The notes: generated from the letters alone by a model not told the origin. A stretch of DNA of 64,000 bases from Methanobrevibacter sp. (GCF_017431965.1 NZ_JAFRKB010000005.1:1-64000); one strand, 5' to 3'; counted from the first letter of the stretch, positions 2,321 through 46,487 are shown. Numbers and translations are program-made.

Positions 2321-2704
2321 TTAATAATCTGGATGACCCTTATACGTAATATTAAATTCTTCCCTGTCGCTAATATTATTATAATCAATTGCATCATATA
2401 CGTAATCGAAATCTGTGCTATTTTTGGTTACATTATTGGTCATCTCTACAGTTACATTTTCATACTGTGGTCCGTCATCCTCACCAATACCAAGAGCTAG
2501 TGAAACGCCAATGCCTGCACCAACAACAAATGCAACCAACACAAGAATGATAAAAAGCATAGTAGTTTTACTAGTTTTCCTAGGTTTTCTAGTTTTTTTA
2601 GGGATATTATTTTGTCTTTTTCTACCTCTTCTCCTATTTTGCGGAGGGGGAGAATTATACCTAGATTTTAACACCCTCTTATCATCTTTCTTTCGTCTCG
2701 CCAT
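2321..2704 (-). CDS. Small single-pass membrane protein, unknown
   Basis: A 127-residue protein not recognised as a named family. Residues 1-48 are strongly basic (many Arg/Lys with a PPPQNRRRGRKR stretch), 49-73 form one hydrophobic helix (start MLFIILVLVAFVVGAG), and the last 50 residues are acidic with several N-x-S/T sequons. The expected topology is a cytoplasmic basic tail, one membrane span and a short outer domain. It lies between argJ (21 nt downstream) and the cyclase-like gene (21 nt upstream), so it is probably cotranscribed with both. The basic tail could touch nucleic acid or lipid; this is inference. Confidence 0.7.
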   Translation of the reverse strand: MARRKKDDKRVLKSRYNSPPPQNRRRGRKRQNNIPKKTRKPRKTSKTTMLFIILVLVAFVVGAGIGVSLALGIGEDDGPQYENVTVEMTNNVTKNSTDFDYVYDAIDYNNISDREEFNITYKGHPDY

Positions 2705-2725: not shown

Positions 2726-3928
2726 TTAAACAACAAATGCATAAACTAAAGCTAAAATAACTCCAACAAATCCGAATAATCCAAGCCCTAAAATATGCAT
2801 CAAATAAACGAAAATAAACACGAATGCAAATACTCCAATTAATTTCGGCTTTTCGTTTTCGACCAAATTGATTAAAGTTCTTGTAAATTCGGATGGAATA
2901 TTATAAGCGTATAATCCATTAGCCAGTTCAAAAACAACTAATGATAACGGGGATGTAGTTGGCAAATCATCAACCAATTGAGCTCTCTCGCCAGCTTCCC
3001 TCCTGCTTCTTCCAATACCTGCCCTTATTTTTGCACCATTATCAAGCGCAAACCAAGCAGCGTCAAGTCCTGCCCTTATGGCCAAATCTTTTGATGGGAA
3101 TCTTGCAATAAAGTCATCTCCACCTTCCCTATAACCTTCAAGTTCACCTTCACATTCACTTTCTATGAAATTTTTAATTCCATTCATTAGCTCTACAAGC
3201 TGGTTTCTACCATGTTTGCTAATAAATTTTGTAGAATCTATTAAATCAATGAACAAATAATTTTCCAAATCAATAGGGTGTGATTCCCTAAGTAAAAATG
3301 GAGAATCAAATACTAATGCATATTCGCCACCCAATTTAGTGAATGCAATTCCAGGAAACATTCCAACATTCTGAGTGTAATGAATAGCTCTTTCAATAGC
3401 TGCTGCACCTGTCATTCCAACAGCAGATATCACTTGAATCCCTTCAGATAAACCAATTCCGATAAGTTCAATTGCGACTCTGATTGCATCATTTTTACTT
3501 AACATTTTTGCAACAAGTTCTGTGTCGGTTTTTTCAATAATTTCTCCAGCTTCATTTTCAATGATTTTAACAAAAATGTTAATCATGTTGGAAGGATGAG
3601 GAATCTCAATATAAAAATAACGGTCACTTCCCATGATTATATTACTGACTAAAGCATATTCCTCTATTTTATTCTCCGCAGGAGACAACTCATGGAAAGT
3701 ATATTCATTAGGAATATTTTCTGCACCCACGTCACGAATAAGATTCTGCAAAATAGTATCTGAAGTAATTTCTGCCTTTTCAAGCTCGAAAAGAATAGTC
3801 TGAGTATAGTTGAATAACTCTACATATTCCGTTTCAAGAGAATTTGTTGGAAAAAATTTAGTCCCAACAGCAATAGGATTAAGCTTGGTAGTAAGCTTAA
3901 TAAAAGACTTGGTCAAACTATTAGCCAT
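2726..3928 (-). CDS. Membrane-anchored class III nucleotidyl cyclase-like protein
   Basis: A 400-residue protein. An N-terminal region (about 1-215) is of unknown fold. Then comes a cyclase-type domain (about 220-345): FIDLIDSTKF at 226-235 matches the first metal-binding strand of class III cyclases (F-x-D). EGGDDFIARF at 268-277 matches the beta-hairpin carrying the second metal Asp and also resembles GGDEF. It is followed by an amphipathic helix and an AGIG strand. Two hydrophobic helices (about 363-400) end the protein. I chose ATG 3928 over 3949 because GGTGGAGG lies just upstream; this start overlaps the preceding gene by 8 nt, so the two are translationally coupled. The product could be a cyclic nucleotide or oligonucleotide, or the domain could be catalytically dead. 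Confidence 0.65.
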   Translation of the reverse strand: MANSLTKSFIKLTTKLNPIAVGTKFFPTNSLETEYVELFNYTQTILFELEKAEITSDTILQNLIRDVGAENIPNEYTFHELSPAENKIEEYALVSNIIMGSDRYFYIEIPHPSNMINIFVKIIENEAGEIIEKTDTELVAKMLSKNDAIRVAIELIGIGLSEGIQVISAVGMTGAAAIERAIHYTQNVGMFPGIAFTKLGGEYALVFDSPFLLRESHPIDLENYLFIDLIDSTKFISKHGRNQLVELMNGIKNFIESECEGELEGYREGGDDFIARFPSKDLAIRAGLDAAWFALDNGAKIRAGIGRSRREAGERAQLVDDLPTTSPLSLVVFELANGLYAYNIPSEFTRTLINLVENEKPKLIGVFAFVFIFVYLMHILGLGLFGFVGVILALVYAFVV

Positions 3929-4946
3929 CCAAACCTCCACCTTTCTCAAGTTCTATTTCAAACTCTCCAGGATTTTCTAAAAGCATATCAGGTTTAACTG
4001 AAACAAATGGAAATTTCCAAGACCCCAATCTACCTGCAATAGTGCTTGCAATGTTTCTGGAGTTTCTTTTGATGAAAATTTCATCATGTTCACTTACACG
4101 AATTAAAATATTATATGGGGCATTTTCAGTCACTTCATCAGCCAATAGGATATTCAACTCAAAGGTGCCCGGTCTTGTAAACAAGTCATTGCGCACAGCA
4201 ATCAACGGTTTTTTCTCAAGGCCCAGCCTATCTGCAACAGTGACAGAAATATTGCCTGCATTTTTAACAGCAATTTTATAATCTTTAGGATGCACCAATA
4301 CAAAAATAACATAAGGCGCTGCGACTTCAACATCATCTACCATTTCTACAATCTTGTTAAACATTGGAATTTTGGAAAAGACACTTTCAAGTTTAGAACC
4401 CGCATTGTTTTCATTATCAATACGTATAATAGCTTGTTTGGCTATATTTAATGGTGAAATTTCCAGACCTTCTTTTCCAGTATAGATTTCCCATTTTTTG
4501 AAGTTTAATTCTTTAATAATCTCATCACAGATATGTTGCAAGATATTTTTATCTTTTTTTGGCTTTTTAGGTTTTCCAAAGGTTAATCTTCCATTTTCTA
4601 TAACGAATGGAATTCTCATAGATGATATATTTCTAAATTCAGCAGCATAATCTCTGAATTTATCATTAGATAATATTTTTGCTCTTTCAGTTGTGGCAAT
4701 ATCAAGAATAAAATGATCCGCATCATTGCCTGCCGGAACTTCTTCTACATTTTCACTTTCCAGCAATCTTTCAAATTTTTCTTTATCGTCAATATCATGG
4801 CGAAGTGATGCGTCAGCAATAATTACAAACTCATCCTCACTTTCTTCCAAAGCTTTAACGGCAGCAAGGATATTGGACATTTGAGGTTGTCCGTTTTCAT
4901 TTTTTATATAGTGTGCTACATTTGAAGCATCTACAACAACTTTCAC
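3921..4946 (-). CDS. NYN/PIN-type (Zc3h12a-like) ribonuclease with duplicated C-terminal domain
   Basis: A 341-residue protein. Residues 1-120 form a PIN-like nuclease fold: VVVDASNVAH at 3-12 gives the first catalytic Asp (D6) with the N9 typical of NYN/Zc3h12a domains. ADAS at 44-47, GNDADHFI at 73-80 and SNDKF at 93-97 supply further acidic residues. A KPKKPKKDK linker follows. Residues about 211-268 and 277-334 are two related units (PYVIFVLV... and PYNILIRV..., each with a GRLG/DRLG and a PGxFE end), presumably a sensing or binding module. The start is GTG 4946 with AGGTGAT 4 nt upstream. It overlaps the cyclase-like gene by 8 nt. Target RNA unknown. Confidence 0.7.
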   Translation of the reverse strand: MKVVVDASNVAHYIKNENGQPQMSNILAAVKALEESEDEFVIIADASLRHDIDDKEKFERLLESENVEEVPAGNDADHFILDIATTERAKILSNDKFRDYAAEFRNISSMRIPFVIENGRLTFGKPKKPKKDKNILQHICDEIIKELNFKKWEIYTGKEGLEISPLNIAKQAIIRIDNENNAGSKLESVFSKIPMFNKIVEMVDDVEVAAPYVIFVLVHPKDYKIAVKNAGNISVTVADRLGLEKKPLIAVRNDLFTRPGTFELNILLADEVTENAPYNILIRVSEHDEIFIKRNSRNIASTIAGRLGSWKFPFVSVKPDMLLENPGEFEIELEKGGGLDG

Positions 4947-5038
4947 AATATCACCTAAAAAAATCTATTATTATAAAGTTTGTTCAGTATATTATATAAG
5001 TATAATTCTAATATTTAAAGTTAATTTTTAAAGAAAAA

Positions 5039-5782
5039 TTAGATTTTATTTCTTGGGTATTTTCCAAATAAAAACCTTTCTCCACCAACATTATTAAGAT
5101 AAATCTCTATTTCATCTTCAGAAATAATATAAACAATGTAAGAATTCAAGTTTTTTCCTCTGAGTTTATAGGAAGAGAAAGATCCCGCATTGACAATAAT
5201 TGTCTCATTTATTTTCCAAATATTGGGAACATGTTTATGCCCACATAAGACTAAATCGACTTCATGTGTTGTTAATGTGTTTAGAATATCACCGGAATCT
5301 GATAAAATATTGCGTTCACGTCCTGTTTGAGGAATAGGAATAAGATGATGGTGAAAAGCGACAATGGAAAAATTTTCATTAATTACGCAATCATCCAATT
5401 GGTGTTCCAGCCACATGTGCTGAGGCCTTCCGATATGGCCCCTATTTTCATCAGGTGTGCTGCTGTCAAGTCCAATGACAGTTAAATCATCCCCCATAGT
5501 TAATTTCCAACTTCTCTCACCAATCAACTCTTCAAAAGTTTGATATCCCAAATTACGGGCATCATGGTTACCTGGAACTGCAAACAAAGGTGCATCGAAC
5601 ACTTCCAAATATTTTGCAACTTGTTCGAATTCTTTATAATATCCATTATCGGTCAAATCGCCTGTCAATATAATCATGTCTGGATTTAACTGATTAACTT
5701 CAGCTGCTGCTTGCATGAATGTTTCCTCATCGAAATCAGACCTGGAAACATGCAAATCGGAGATATGGGCAATGACTGTCAT
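5039..5782 (-). CDS. Calcineurin-like metallophosphoesterase (CpdA/Icc type)
   Basis: A 247-residue protein with all metal-binding motifs of the class III cyclic-nucleotide phosphodiesterase-like family: D9-x-H11 (SDLHV), GDLTD at 41-45, GNHD at 71-74, HHH at 144-146 and GHKH at 181-184. The GNHD motif and length fit CpdA (cAMP phosphodiesterase) better than DNA-repair Mre11. It is encoded 92 nt upstream of the NYN RNase/cyclase pair on the same strand and 5 nt after the NAC gene. That position next to a cyclase-like gene makes nucleotide second-messenger hydrolysis a reasonable guess, but general phosphodiesterase activity is all the sequence guarantees. Confidence 0.85.
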   Translation of the reverse strand: MTVIAHISDLHVSRSDFDEETFMQAAAEVNQLNPDMIILTGDLTDNGYYKEFEQVAKYLEVFDAPLFAVPGNHDARNLGYQTFEELIGERSWKLTMGDDLTVIGLDSSTPDENRGHIGRPQHMWLEHQLDDCVINENFSIVAFHHHLIPIPQTGRERNILSDSGDILNTLTTHEVDLVLCGHKHVPNIWKINETIIVNAGSFSSYKLRGKNLNSYIVYIISEDEIEIYLNNVGGERFLFGKYPRNKI

Positions 5783-5787
5783 AGTAT

Positions 5788-6138
5788 CTATTGGCTTAAT
5801 TTCATGATAGCTTCTGCCAAATCACCTTTACATTCTTCTAAAGCTGCTCTTGCTTCATCTTGTGAAACGTTCGCACTGTTAGCCACCATTTCCACATCTT
5901 CATCAGGAATTTCAATTTCATATTCAAGCTCTACTTCACGTGCTTTACCATCAATTTGATAAGTTTCCTGACCCATCACATTCATTAAACTTACACTAGG
6001 ATTATCGATAATTAACTCTTTATCATCGAAACGGATAATTACTTCACGGACGCCTTCAAGCTCTTCCATTTTCATTCCCATCTTTTTCATTTGTCTTTCC
6101 ATTTGTTTCATTTGTTTCTTATTCATTCCAGGCATCAT
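5788..6138 (-). CDS. nac: Nascent polypeptide-associated complex protein
   Basis: A 116-residue archaeal NAC, which forms homodimers at the ribosomal exit tunnel and contacts emerging chains. A Met/Lys-rich N-terminal ribosome-binding helix (MNKKQMKQMERQMKKMGMK) is followed by the NAC beta domain (VIIRFDDKELIIDNPSV, about 29-60) and a C-terminal UBA domain (about 78-116, ending EAIMKLSQ). The start at 6138 is supported by GAGG 7 nt before the ATG. The phosphoesterase gene follows after only 5 nt, so the two are probably cotranscribed. Confidence 0.95.
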   Translation of the reverse strand: MMPGMNKKQMKQMERQMKKMGMKMEELEGVREVIIRFDDKELIIDNPSVSLMNVMGQETYQIDGKAREVELEYEIEIPDEDVEMVANSANVSQDEARAALEECKGDLAEAIMKLSQ

Positions 6139-40823: not shown

Positions 40824-43800
40824 TTATCTTTTCTTTGAGAAATTGCGACCCAAAAATATCATCAAGAACACTATTGAAATCAGCAAAACTGCAAACGGAT
40901 TGGCAGTAATGTGATTTTCATCAATTAAAACATCAAGTGCAGATGAATTTGGAGTTGAATTTGCTTTATCTAGATGTTTTTCGGGAATTTCATCATTTTC
41001 ACTGACATTGACCAAAACTTCATCCTGATTGTTATCGCTGTCATAATCAAATGTATCGCTTATTGCAACAACCATGTTTTTGGCAATGTCCGCACCTGCA
41101 GCCATTGCTTTTATGTAGAGTTCGGCATGCTCCCCATTATCCAGACAATCGATATTCCATACCTGGTTTGAATCATCATAACTTCCTTTTGAAGCCCTTG
41201 CTGATTTAAAAGTCAATGATTTATCCGGAATTTCATTAACTTTAACGTTTCTGGCTTCATCAGGTCCGTTATTGACAATTTTAATGGAATAATCTACAAT
41301 ATCACCAACTTTATAATAATATTTTGAGACCGTTTTTGTTATTGACAAATCGCAGGCCGGTGGAACATCAATCTCTTCAACATCCCTATTGTTAACCGGA
41401 TTTGGATCATGTTCATCACCTGAAATTATAGCAATATTTTCAAAAACACCAGTGGATATCACTTTGCAAATAATATCTAACTGTTTAACTTCATTTAAGG
41501 CCAAATCACCAATATGCCAGGTACCATCAGCAGTTATGTTGTCGCTTGAGCTGACGAATTCAACACCGTTAGGCATTATGTCCCTGACAGTGACATTTGT
41601 TGCATCATTAGGACCGTTATTGCGAGCGATGATGCTCCATTTGATTAAATCACCGTAATTAGGATTTGAATTATTGACAATTTTTTCAACTGACAAATCA
41701 GTCACTGGACTAACATTGATTTTTTCACTAGCTTTATTGTTGGATTCATTCCGGTCAACCTGTGAACATCTGGCTATTGCCTCATTTAGAATCTCACCCA
41801 ATTTATTCACACTGCAAGTGATATTAATGTATGCAATATCACCATTATCCAATCTAGGAATGCTCCATTTGTTATTCTTGAATGTTCCGACAGTACTTGA
41901 ATAACCCCTTAAAATTAAACCGCTATCCAACACATCAGAAACTACAACATTGGTAGCCCTATCCGGACCGTTGTTTCTAATGGATATAAACCATGTGATA
42001 TTATCTCCGAAATAAGGTGTTTTATCGGATACCTGTTTGGTTACCTCCAAGTCAACGGTTGATGGGACTTTGATTGATTCATTATCCTTGTTGTTGGATT
42101 TGTTTAAGTCAACTTCATCAGCAGAAATTGAAGCGAAATTGGTAATTGTACCTGTCTTATTGACTTTACAAGTGATTTCCAATATTTGCTCTTCACCATT
42201 TTCCAAACAACACAATCCCCAGACGCCGTTATCATAAAGACCTTTGCTTAGAGTAACATTCATCACTATCAATCCATCAGGCAAAACATCATCTACAAAA
42301 ACGGATGTGGCCTTATCGGGACCATTGTTTTTAGCGATTACTGTCCATTTAATGATATCACCATATTTTGGTTTTGAATTATTGACCAATTTGGATACAC
42401 TTACATCGGCTGTTTTTGAAACGTTTATATAGGAATCATCCTTATTGTTGGATAAATCAGGATCGAATTTGCTTCCGTTTACAGAAACATTATTCTGAGT
42501 GAAACCGGTAGCAACTACACGAGTAATGATATTTAACCGGACAGATGCATTAGGAATTAAGTTGCCTATTGTCCATCTGCCGTTAGCACGGTTATATTTT
42601 CCACGGCCATCATCACTAACCCAAGCCAGTGAATCCGGAAGTAAATCGGAAACTACAACACCACTTGCTTCATCAGGCCCATTGTTTCGAACAGTGATAG
42701 TCCAACATATTTCCTCACCGTAATTAGGATTGGTAACATTCACTGTTTTTATAACTTCCAAATCAGCAGCAGAATTAATGAAAACTGACGCTTCATCCCT
42801 ATTGTTGGATTTATCAGGGTCATATTGCTTTCCACTGACATTAGCTACATTAGTGAATAATCCTGTTTTGTTGACTTTGCAAATAAATTCATAGGTCAAA
42901 TTTTCACCAATTCCTAAAGATCCTACATTAATGACCCCATTTGAGTATGATCCCCTTGGTAAAATTGAGCGAACCAAAATAAGTCCATCAGGCAATTTAT
43001 CGGATACTTTAACACCATATGCATTGCTCGGACCGTTATTGGAAATAACTATTTTCCAAGTGATTTCATCACCGAAATTAGCAGATGAAACATTTATTGA
43101 CTTTTCAATAACCAGATCTGCAGAGTTATTGACTTTAATACTGCAAGAGTCCTTATTATTTGATTCATTCCTGTCACGTTCATCTCCTTTAACGGAAACA
43201 TCGTTTTTAATGGTTCCAGTTCCATTTACCTGGCAGAATATGTCCAATGTGACTTCTTCATTAACATCTAAAGTTCCAATGACCCATTTTCCAGTATTTT
43301 TATTGTAATTTGCACTGTTATCAATGTAAATCATAGATTTTGGAAGGATATCAGTCATTACAACATTATGCGCCGGGTCAGGACCATTATTTCGAACGAC
43401 GATTGTCCATTTAATATAGTCACGATAATTCGGATTAGAATTGTTAACTGATTTAACGACTTCCAAATCACAGGTTTTCGGAACAGTGATTGACGCTTCA
43501 TCCCTATTGTTGGATTTATCAGGATCGTATTGCTTTCCACTGACATTAGCTACATTAGTGAATAATCCTGTTTTGTTAATTTTGCAAATAAATTCATAGG
43601 TCAAATTTTCACCAATTCCTAAAGACCCTACATTAATGACCCCATTTGAGTATGTTCCCCTTGGTAAAATTGGGCGAACAAGAATTAGTCCATCAGGCAA
43701 TACATCAGATACTTTAACACCATATGCATTGCTTGGACCGTTATTGGAAATAACTATTTTCCAAGTGATTTCATCACCGAAATTAGCAGATGAGACATTT

Positions 43801-46487
43801 ATTGACTTTTCAATAGCCAAATCTGCAGAGTTATTGACTTTTATACTGCAGGAGTCATAATTATTTGATTCATTCCTGTCACGTTCATCTCCTTTAACGG
43901 AAACGTCATTTTTGATGGTTCCTGTTGCATTTACCTGGCAGAATATGTCCAATGTGACTTCTTCATTAACACCTAAAGTCCCAATGACCCATTTTCCATT
44001 ATTTTTATTGTAATTTGCACTGTTGCTAATGTAAATCATAGATTTTGGAAGGATATCAGTCATTACAACATTATGTGCCGGATCAGGACCATTATTCCGA
44101 ACGACAATTGTCCATTTAATATAGTCGCGATAACTTGGATTAGAATTGTTGACTAATTTAACGACTTCCAAATCACAGGTTTTCGGAACTGTAATCGATG
44201 CCTCATCATGGTTGTTAGACAAATTTACATCAAATTCATTGGAGGTGACATTTGCTTCATTAACTATATCACCGGTTTTATTGATTCTGGCATAGATATT
44301 GACAATTATAGTCTGATTGACTTCAACATCCCCAATATACAAACTGCCTGTCTGATGATTATATGAACCGTTACTATCATCATTAATATAAACCAATCCG
44401 ATAGGAAGAATATCATGAACTGTGACATTTGTTGCTTTGTTAGGACCATGGTTTGTAATATTCAATGTCCATACAACGACATCATCATAGTTGTAAGATT
44501 CTGAAGCGGACAATTTTCTAACCTGACTGTCAATTTTTGGAATAACATTGAATGTTGTAGTGTTAATAATAGCTTTGTAGTAGGTATCTTCTGTATGTCT
44601 TGCAGTCACATAATATTTTCCCGGCTGCAAACCATCCAATTCGTCTGAAACCTCACCAAGATAGTTGGAAGTTAATGTTTCATTATAAATTAAAAGACCA
44701 TCCTCCCTTTCGACAGTGAGTAAGATTTTCATGTTATATTCACGGTCATCCTGATATAACCTGCCATTATTTGTGGCACCATCTAAAGGGGATTCGCCGT
44801 CAATTGACAAATGGGAATAATCCGCAGCATTGTAGATTGCATTTGAAACCGCAAGATTATTATATCTGGCAATGTTGTTTCCACCATGAATGACAGATTT
44901 TAACTCTTCTGTTTGTCCATAGAAGATGTCATTTGCATAAATCGGCAATAAATAAACCCAAGCCTGATTTTCAAATAATGTATTATTATTTAGGATTAAT
45001 TCATTTCCATATTTGTCATAATAAATTGCACTGCCGTTTCTGGCAGTATTATAATAGAACTCTGAATTACACACATTAGCTTTGGTACTGTTTATATAAA
45101 TTGCACCACCTAATCCGTCGTTTAATTTATTATAATCCGGGCGAGCCTCATTAGAGATAAATAATGAATTATCTACAAGAGTATTTTCCCCTTTGGAATA
45201 AATTGCTCCGCCATCCACTTCAGCAAGATTCAAAGTAAAATTTGAATTGTGGATTTCAACATTTTGTGCTTCAATATTTAAAGCACCACCATAAACATCC
45301 GCATAATTATCATAGAAAGTAGAATTGAAAATATTTATATTCACACCTGCTACCTGAATAGCTCCTCCTTTAGGGGCAATATTGCATTCAAAATAACAGT
45401 TAACTATTTCAAAATCCATAATATCATATTGATATCCTGTGGAAACCGCACCTCCATACAGCTTATTTGCATAGTTATCCCTAAAAGTACAGTTCTCAAG
45501 TTTACCGGATGCATGGAATGTTAAAGCTCCGCCTTGGTCAGCATGGTTATTGGTGAATACGCAATTCACATATTCTACTCCATTACGAACACAACCTGCA
45601 CCGCCATGGGAATTTCTATTGATGCTGATTGCATAATTATTGTTGAAAGTACAATTATAAACTAAAGCTTTATAGTTATTTACATCCAAACCAATCTGTA
45701 TTGCACCGCCATATACTGAACCACTGCCTTTAACCCAATTTGAGTCAAAAAGACAATTAATTACTTTCGAATTCATTCCGTAAACTCCAACGGCACCTGC
45801 TGTGGAGAAGTTTTGAAGACTTTTGAAGTATCCCGAATTGTTCCTGAATTCGCAATTCTGAATTGTTAAATTTTCAGCAGTGTATAAGTCATATAATGAT
45901 GATAATACGCCACCGTGATTGGCATGATTATTCTCGAAAATACAATTGTCAACAATGACATTTTTCGTCAATATATAAACTGCCGATCCAACATCCCCTT
46001 CAGCATGTATAAATCTTAAATTGGATATTACACTTCCATGGGCATCACCCGTAATGTTAAAAATACTGGATACATCTTCACCATCCAAAGTCGCAGAAGA
46101 TGCGGATGTGATTGTTAGCCTTTTATCAATATTTATTGTTGATTCATTTCCATTTGCACTATAATCACCAGTTAAATATATTGTATCTCCAGCCCGTGCA
46201 TTATTTATTACATTTTGAATATCCTGAAATGTTCTTCCATTAACAGAATAATCTGTAGCCAAAATATTCCCACTACTCTTATCTACCTCCAGAATTTCAT
46301 TTGCTTGAGAATTTCCTAGTTTATCTTTAATATCCAATTCCATTATTGGCCCATTGCCTTTTTCATTTAACTCTGCCGCATAAGAATCTTCAATATTTAA
46401 TCCAACTGCTGCAAATATTAAACAAATAAATAGCATGGAAATAATGAAATTTTTGCTAATTGCTATCTTTTGAGTTTTATTTAACAT
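40824..46487 (-). CDS. Adhesin-like surface protein (beta-helix + ten DUF11 repeats)
   Basis: A 1887-residue protein. A signal sequence (IISMLFICLIFAAVGLN, about 14-38) precedes a right-handed parallel beta-helix (about 90-560; many N-x-F-x-x-N-x-A and GGA turns such as HGGVL, YGGAI). An Ig-like domain follows (about 590-650), then ten DUF11-type repeats (about 650-1810, each with NNGPDxAxNVxVxDxLP and NESNN). A C-terminal membrane anchor (FAVLLISIVFLMIFLG) ends in FSKKR. It is a typical methanogen adhesin-like protein held at the cell surface, probably for contact with host or other microbes. AGGTGATTAA precedes the ATG. Repeat pairs 2-3 and 4-5 are a recent duplication. Confidence 0.92.
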   Translation of the reverse strand: MLNKTQKIAISKNFIISMLFICLIFAAVGLNIEDSYAAELNEKGNGPIMELDIKDKLGNSQANEILEVDKSSGNILATDYSVNGRTFQDIQNVINNARAGDTIYLTGDYSANGNESTINIDKRLTITSASSATLDGEDVSSIFNITGDAHGSVISNLRFIHAEGDVGSAVYILTKNVIVDNCIFENNHANHGGVLSSLYDLYTAENLTIQNCEFRNNSGYFKSLQNFSTAGAVGVYGMNSKVINCLFDSNWVKGSGSVYGGAIQIGLDVNNYKALVYNCTFNNNYAISINRNSHGGAGCVRNGVEYVNCVFTNNHADQGGALTFHASGKLENCTFRDNYANKLYGGAVSTGYQYDIMDFEIVNCYFECNIAPKGGAIQVAGVNINIFNSTFYDNYADVYGGALNIEAQNVEIHNSNFTLNLAEVDGGAIYSKGENTLVDNSLFISNEARPDYNKLNDGLGGAIYINSTKANVCNSEFYYNTARNGSAIYYDKYGNELILNNNTLFENQAWVYLLPIYANDIFYGQTEELKSVIHGGNNIARYNNLAVSNAIYNAADYSHLSIDGESPLDGATNNGRLYQDDREYNMKILLTVEREDGLLIYNETLTSNYLGEVSDELDGLQPGKYYVTARHTEDTYYKAIINTTTFNVIPKIDSQVRKLSASESYNYDDVVVWTLNITNHGPNKATNVTVHDILPIGLVYINDDSNGSYNHQTGSLYIGDVEVNQTIIVNIYARINKTGDIVNEANVTSNEFDVNLSNNHDEASITVPKTCDLEVVKLVNNSNPSYRDYIKWTIVVRNNGPDPAHNVVMTDILPKSMIYISNSANYNKNNGKWVIGTLGVNEEVTLDIFCQVNATGTIKNDVSVKGDERDRNESNNYDSCSIKVNNSADLAIEKSINVSSANFGDEITWKIVISNNGPSNAYGVKVSDVLPDGLILVRPILPRGTYSNGVINVGSLGIGENLTYEFICKINKTGLFTNVANVSGKQYDPDKSNNRDEASITVPKTCDLEVVKSVNNSNPNYRDYIKWTIVVRNNGPDPAHNVVMTDILPKSMIYIDNSANYNKNTGKWVIGTLDVNEEVTLDIFCQVNGTGTIKNDVSVKGDERDRNESNNKDSCSIKVNNSADLVIEKSINVSSANFGDEITWKIVISNNGPSNAYGVKVSDKLPDGLILVRSILPRGSYSNGVINVGSLGIGENLTYEFICKVNKTGLFTNVANVSGKQYDPDKSNNRDEASVFINSAADLEVIKTVNVTNPNYGEEICWTITVRNNGPDEASGVVVSDLLPDSLAWVSDDGRGKYNRANGRWTIGNLIPNASVRLNIITRVVATGFTQNNVSVNGSKFDPDLSNNKDDSYINVSKTADVSVSKLVNNSKPKYGDIIKWTVIAKNNGPDKATSVFVDDVLPDGLIVMNVTLSKGLYDNGVWGLCCLENGEEQILEITCKVNKTGTITNFASISADEVDLNKSNNKDNESIKVPSTVDLEVTKQVSDKTPYFGDNITWFISIRNNGPDRATNVVVSDVLDSGLILRGYSSTVGTFKNNKWSIPRLDNGDIAYINITCSVNKLGEILNEAIARCSQVDRNESNNKASEKINVSPVTDLSVEKIVNNSNPNYGDLIKWSIIARNNGPNDATNVTVRDIMPNGVEFVSSSDNITADGTWHIGDLALNEVKQLDIICKVISTGVFENIAIISGDEHDPNPVNNRDVEEIDVPPACDLSITKTVSKYYYKVGDIVDYSIKIVNNGPDEARNVKVNEIPDKSLTFKSARASKGSYDDSNQVWNIDCLDNGEHAELYIKAMAAGADIAKNMVVAISDTFDYDSDNNQDEVLVNVSENDEIPEKHLDKANSTPNSSALDVLIDENHITANPFAVLLISIVFLMIFLGRNFSKKR
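42787..44196. repeat. 705-bp tandem duplication inside the adhesin gene
   Basis: Copy 1 (about 42787-43491) and copy 2 (about 43492-44196) differ at few positions. Each encodes 235 residues, i.e. two DUF11 units. For example GACGCTTCATCCCTATTG recurs at exactly 705 bp. The frame is kept. Confidence 0.85.

Follow-up and report, generated by a model that had tools for sequence, protein, structure and literature searches.

A class III-like two-palm protein encoded with a Zc3h12a-type RNase in Methanobacteria: a candidate nucleotide-signalling switch

The pairing of a palm-type nucleotide synthase with an NYN RNase has been described in a type III CRISPR system of Bacteroides fragilis, where Cas10 is encoded with an ancillary NYN protein; its signal, SAM-AMP, acts on a CorA-family effector, and the NYN protein is proposed to trim CRISPR RNA (crRNA) (PMC11346440). 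Closer to the locus considered here is "cluster D" of Lupo et al (2025), whose Table 1 lists a "Nucleotide cyclase" (OG0001214) together with a "Zc3h12a-like ribonuclease NYN domain" (OG0001213) and which is given there as specific to pseudomurein archaea (PMC11915815). We analysed a 64,000-nucleotide (nt) stretch of DNA from Methanobrevibacter sp. (GCF_017431965.1, NZ_JAFRKB010000005.1:1–64000), referred to below as the window and used in full for all coordinates. In this window, an original prediction made from the sequence had proposed a signalling circuit of three genes on one strand, which encode a cyclase-like membrane protein of 400 residues (CYC), an NYN-type RNase whose gene overlaps that of CYC (NYN), and a CpdA-like phosphoesterase. 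Our analysis lends weight to the proposed link between a cyclase-type enzyme and an RNase, and suggests that CYC and its partner, which in most species is an RNase, form a candidate and so far unstudied nucleotide-signalling switch on RNA.

Kinship, architecture, and predicted active site of CYC

Searches of Pfam, NCBIfam, and PDB with the CYC sequence by itself returned noise alone, so an alignment of its orthologs was needed. With a profile built from 23 orthologs, the best matches among PDB sequences were class III cyclases (Rv1900c, E = 0.0025). When homologs from a sister genus of Methanobacteria, which we take to be very probably Methanopyrus, were added, the match to Rv1900c (1ybt) reached E = 9.5e-6 and that to Ma1120 (4wp8) lay at 0.003–0.006; the one further match up to E = 10, at 1.6, was taken as chance. 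In hhalign comparisons, residues 218–350 of CYC aligned with nine bacterial class III domains at E = 1.4e-8 and a score of 54.9, against a maximum of 17.7 in 60 column permutations and 11.7 in a reversed control. The top Foldseek matches of a template-free AlphaFold model of CYC (48 sequences, pLDDT 86, pTM 0.76) are adenylyl cyclases (E 1e-6 to 1e-4), on which a single CYC domain superposes with an rmsd of 3.9 Å and a TM score of 0.56 by target, and GTP cyclohydrolase III (2qv6) is also matched (1e-4). Profiles and predicted fold, the latter agreeing with the class III adenylyl cyclase fold that had been anticipated, concur that the second palm of CYC is a remote, class III-like relative of these enzymes. 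The features of CYC are the following.

2726–3928, minus strand: CYC, class III-like two-palm protein with a C-terminal membrane hairpin, 400 residues
3281–3646, minus strand: residues 95–216, first palm, diverged and without the Asp pair (hhalign to the second copy, permuted controls)
2879–3277, minus strand: residues 218–350, second palm, class III-like (profiles, AlphaFold/Foldseek)
2732–2851, minus strand: residues 360–399 (approximately), two hydrophobic helices forming the membrane hairpin
3245–3247, minus strand: D228, predicted first metal ligand (aligns with the FTDIVGST Asp of class III cyclases)
3113–3124, minus strand: G269-G270-D271-D272 hairpin, with D271 as predicted second metal ligand (class III alignment, conservation)

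CYC is thus composed of two tandem palm-like domains followed by a membrane hairpin, and the two C-terminal helices bear out its earlier description as a membrane protein. The palms are an internal duplication, recovered by hhalign at E = 6.6e-9 and, with sister-genus members added, at 4.4e-13; copy 1 scored 76.7 against copy 2 compared with a permuted maximum of 19.8. This duplication, as well as the ancient core of cyclase and repeat domain described below, is new relative to the original prediction.

The FIDLID strand and EGGDD hairpin noted earlier in CYC correspond to residues 226–231 and 268–272. Conservation was counted over 123 distinct CYC sequences, and D228, G269, G270, D271, and D272 are each present in 123/123, so that both Asp residues taken for metal ligands are retained throughout the relatives. 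D228 and D271 align with the class III metal ligands of β1 and of the β2–β3 hairpin, respectively, and four residues ahead of D271, at position 267, there is R in 119 sequences and K in 4. The first palm has its own invariant residues, namely K145, G171, T173, A175, A176, E179, R180, K198, G200, and E202 (123/123).

Likeness to GGDEF and Cas10 proteins is less well supported than that to class III cyclases, and membership of CYC in either family was rejected with neither profile matched. Across eight genomes, the GGDEF profile PF00990 did not match the CYC gene; for Cas10, CYC had neither a Pfam nor a PADLOC match, and its neighbours are NAC, phosphoesterase, and ArgJ genes, not CRISPR genes. 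Sequence kinship to GTP cyclohydrolase III was rejected as well, with no PF05165 match for CYC and a profile similarity within the range of controls. Identity of CYC with MK0296, an archaeal GGDEF relative (PMC2904730), was rejected by position in the probable Methanopyrus kandleri genome, where CYC lies at 101–102 kb and another palm-like open reading frame (ORF) at 285 kb; this presumes that gene numbers follow the chromosome. The other ORF, of 306 residues (G181:C1, about 285.2–286.1 kb, minus strand), carries a GGDA ... LGVGVG palm-like motif and may itself be the MK0296-type relative.

The NYN partner and conservation of the locus

The NYN, phosphoesterase, and CYC ORFs lie on the minus strand. 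The NYN stop at 3921 and the CYC ATG at 3928 produce an overlap of 8 nt, and the phosphoesterase stop at 5039 is separated by 92 nt from the GTG start of NYN at 4946; strand, coordinates, overlap, and spacing all agree with the earlier reading. A Shine-Dalgarno-like GGTGGAGGT lies directly upstream of ATG 3928, within the terminal part of the NYN coding sequence; judged by sequence, this ATG is the best start for CYC. Because this element precedes the CYC start, the overlap looks like translational coupling. NYN and its domains are positioned as follows.

3921–4946, minus strand: NYN, Zc3h12a-type RNase with a C-terminal repeat domain, 341 residues
4575–4946, minus strand: nuclease domain, about residues 1–124 (PF11977, fold, conservation)
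4131–4334, minus strand: first C-terminal repeat, residues 205–272 (hhalign; retained in the sister genus, where the nuclease is absent)
3942–4139, minus strand: second C-terminal repeat, residues 270–335 (hhalign; sister-genus homolog)

The description of NYN as a Zc3h12a/NYN nuclease with a duplicated C-terminal domain was confirmed in both parts. NYN matches Pfam RNase_Zc3h12a (PF11977) at E = 4.6e-17 and 62.6 bits, against a cut-off of 23, and 23/23 NYN members match this family; the nuclease domain is of the Zc3h12a type by fold too (Foldseek, 1e-6), and its acidic residues D6, D77, and D95 are conserved. Two repeats that are related to each other (hhalign E = 4e-13) make up the C-terminal domain, which was unmatched in Pfam, PHROGs, PDB sequences, and two fold libraries. 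This domain is the obvious candidate for the role of receptor or adaptor.

CYC is encoded in single copy in 148 of 152 Methanobacteria genomes, including 90 of the 91 of good quality. Beyond Methanobacteria, 64 archaeal genomes yielded three real matches, all in the sister genus, and 61 were without one. A profile built on the C-terminal domain of NYN likewise found the sister genus and no other sampled archaea, one match at E = 0.02 being taken as chance, so CYC and the repeat domain have an identical distribution across the sampled archaea; PF11977 was found outside Methanobacteria in only two of them. Most Methanobacteria loci share the order NAC, phosphoesterase, NYN, and CYC, with ArgJ further along, and CYC starts between −14 and +5 nt from the NYN stop in 140/171 loci (species redundancy kept), with larger gaps in the rest. 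In Methanopyrus, NAC and the phosphoesterase are not adjacent to CYC, and the other neighbours all differ. The expected synteny therefore holds for CYC and NYN across Methanobacteria and for CYC and the repeat domain into the sister genus, whereas the phosphoesterase is facultative.

This distribution is not the patchy one of Pycsar- or CBASS-type defence, and PADLOC gave a single match, at 0.03, of one sister-genus homolog to PycC. A role as a defence system was rejected based on the single copy in 148/152 genomes and the lack of a convincing PADLOC match.

Upstream of NYN, two further genes belong to the conserved string.

5039–5782, minus strand: CpdA-like metallophosphoesterase, facultative operon member
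5788–6138, minus strand: NAC protein, whose gene opens the conserved string (TIGR00264; synteny)

The phosphoesterase matches Pfam Metallophos (E = 1.7e-21) and, as had been noted, carries the complete set of CpdA-type motifs, all five (DLH, GDLTD, GNHD, HHH, and GHKH) being present; against the NCBIfam CpdA model it reaches E = 8.6e-18 but 64.8 bits, below the equivalog cut-off of 225. In one genus almost every member is without it, and in others it is located elsewhere in the genome or interrupted. Its orthologs in three genomes (G108, G110, and G111) and in one genus (g13) show in-frame stops or split matches. These patterns suggest that the gene is decaying in several lineages while NYN and CYC stay intact.

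A short basic protein with a single transmembrane segment is encoded between CYC and ArgJ (2321–2704, minus strand). It had been suggested as a fourth member, which is unlikely because it is poorly conserved: it evolves fast (33–52% identity where found) and is confined to its own genus plus a few relatives. Elsewhere in the window, a very long ORF of 1887 residues (40824–46487, minus strand) possibly encodes a surface protein, judged by its length alone.

A proposed circuit and its alternatives

We propose that CYC is a membrane-tethered class III-like cyclase, with a two-metal site formed by D228 and D271 in the second palm, that is translationally coupled to a cytoplasmic partner. CYC would make a nucleotide signal, in the first instance perhaps a cyclic mononucleotide, and the repeat domain would bind either CYC or its product. 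In Methanobacteria such binding would gate RNA cleavage by NYN near the membrane, and the CpdA-like phosphoesterase, where present, may remove the product. CYC is probably an active enzyme that converts nucleotides in one way or another; the circuit as stated, with a signal gating the RNase through the repeat domain, we consider tentative, its chances falling somewhat short of even.

Several observations weigh against this circuit. The class III segment past strand 4, which holds the transition-state Asn/Arg motif, could not be aligned with either half of CYC, the scores staying within permuted controls, and PF00211 gave no match up to E = 1 in the 23 CYC members or in those of the sister genus. 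Superposed together on a C1/C2 pair, the modelled palms gave an rmsd of 15–21 Å and a TM score of about 0.2. CYC therefore falls outside strict class III membership, and because of the unalignable segment and a modelled arrangement unlike C1/C2 we assign it to a class III-like family and not to the class III cyclases. Its asymmetric palms could accommodate a composite site of the kind known from C1/C2 adenylyl cyclases, but neither of two tests, the alignment past strand 4 and the modelled domain arrangement, supports such a site, which is unproven. A C2-type donor role for the first palm, with K198 as the "LKG" lysine and R180 as the transition-state Arg, was rejected, since the C-terminal halves scored at the level of permuted controls and the model did not fit C1/C2. 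In Methanopyrus, the gene that precedes CYC by 1 nt codes for the repeat domain alone (241 residues), without a nuclease. The constant unit thus consists of CYC and the repeat domain, and the nuclease, which is not the fixed part of the circuit it had been taken for, was either fused in Methanobacteria or lost in Methanopyrus. The phosphoesterase was found in 122 of the 152 Methanobacteria genomes (E ≤ 1e-30) and, being off the Methanopyrus locus as well, was rejected as an obligatory member. Finally, no CRP-type cyclic mononucleotide (cNMP) receptor was found in the Methanobacteria tested, nearly all of which encode a CYTH (class IV-like) protein that could be a source of cAMP.

The presence of 3',5'-cAMP has been reported in Methanothermobacter thermautotrophicus (Leichtling 1986, as cited in PMC8646023), and no maker or receptor for it is assigned in the accessible literature. 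Canonical class III cyclases (PF00211) were detected in 1 of 50 Methanobacteria tested. Because the group is without CRP receptors and nearly without such cyclases, yet cAMP has been reported, CYC is a candidate for its source, in competition with the CYTH protein; the CYTH protein of Sulfolobus acidocaldarius was shown not to be a cyclase, as stated in PMC8646023. The sole PF00211 match, a 243-residue ORF in a Methanobrevibacter-type genome (G094:C19:6098-6571), contains a canonical class III domain, has a Pycsar-like look, and may represent either a mobile defence gene or contamination.

CYC might instead be an active, RNase-coupled palm enzyme with another product made from NTPs, such as a cyclic or linear oligonucleotide (compare Cas10, GGDEF, and GTP cyclohydrolase III). 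The fold match to 2qv6 and the absence of class III motifs past strand 4 favour this reading; the profiles, which match class III cyclases and not GGDEF, Cas10, or GTP cyclohydrolase III, speak against it, as does the separate true GTP cyclohydrolase III encoded elsewhere in the genome, and we regard it as unlikely, if a serious contender. CYC could also act without any messenger, as a nucleotide-binding scaffold or sensor that anchors NYN at the membrane through the repeats and uses ATP or GTP binding as a switch. Translational coupling and the membrane hairpin fit a tethering complex, and the lack of a known cNMP receptor in the group and the dispensable phosphoesterase point the same way. 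Set against this, the metal Asp pair and GGDD turn are absolute over the 123 sequences, including across the deep split from the sister genus, which exceeds the needs of binding only, and the sister genus retains the pair though it has no nuclease there to tether; such a scaffold seems rather improbable to us.

A quite improbable reading is that the locus is a lineage-specific housekeeping or envelope unit, in which CYC serves pseudomurein or membrane physiology, NYN serves general RNA processing, and their proximity is coincidental. Its distribution is that of the pseudomurein archaea as listed in PMC11915815, and genes of stable archaeal operons such as NAC and ArgJ are often unrelated in function. 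Since the two groups are related, however, the shared distribution may reflect a single event of ancestry and not a link to the cell wall, and CYC and the repeat domain remain adjacent in the sister genus despite neighbours that otherwise all differ.

Nearly universal in the group, in single copy, and genetically coupled, the CYC pair is a candidate for a missing signalling system. If it is that system, a cyclase would be linked directly to the cutting of RNA in a setting other than CRISPR or defence against phages, and the repeats would represent a new kind of nucleotide-binding domain. The wider proposal, of an ancient, chromosomally fixed messenger circuit of Methanobacteria and Methanopyrus in which a previously unknown, two-repeat receptor fold reads a nucleotide and, in Methanobacteria, drives the RNase, we offer as a doubtful extension; it would provide the unassigned synthase of cAMP, or of another cyclic nucleotide, in Methanothermobacter and a first nucleotide receptor for these archaea.

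Comparison with known systems

The original prediction knew of no such system in methanogens. The pair has in fact been listed in print, as cluster D, and a functional study was not found in the open literature. Judged by annotation, membrane prediction, and distribution, cluster D corresponds to the CYC/NYN pair (PMC11915815). It occupies two table rows and one sentence, and the main text of that paper is without domain analysis, residue conservation, or mechanism and does not mention that the nuclease is absent in Methanopyrus (PMC11915815).

Like the Bacteroides fragilis system (PMC11346440), the locus combines a palm-type protein with an NYN RNase; it differs in having no adjoining CRISPR genes, in belonging to the core genome, and in a Zc3h12a-type NYN protein with a repeat domain. 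Because the Bacteroides NYN protein is proposed to be a crRNA trimmer, and activation of its RNase by a signal was not demonstrated, caution is due in assuming messenger gating. The phosphoesterase shares its five motifs with CpdA and class III metallophosphoesterases and departs from them in its sub-cut-off score and variable presence at the locus. NYN resembles Zc3h12a/Regnase in nuclease sequence, fold, and the acidic D6, D77, and D95, whereas it is without the CCCH zinc finger, has A76 at the first Asp of the Regnase DD pair, and carries a repeat domain without known relative.

With GTP cyclohydrolase III (ArfA, PF05165, 2qv6), CYC has in common the palm-type fold, two tandem domains, and a GGD(N) hairpin, but not a profile similarity above controls. 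Class III cyclases (PF00211; Rv1900c, Ma1120) share with CYC the fold of its second domain, the hairpin Asp, and the K/R four residues before it, and their β1 metal Asp (DIVGST / DLIDST) has a CYC counterpart. What sets CYC apart from them is the GGDD dyad, the presence of two palms in tandem within a single chain, with the Asp pair missing from the first, and the C-terminal membrane segment.
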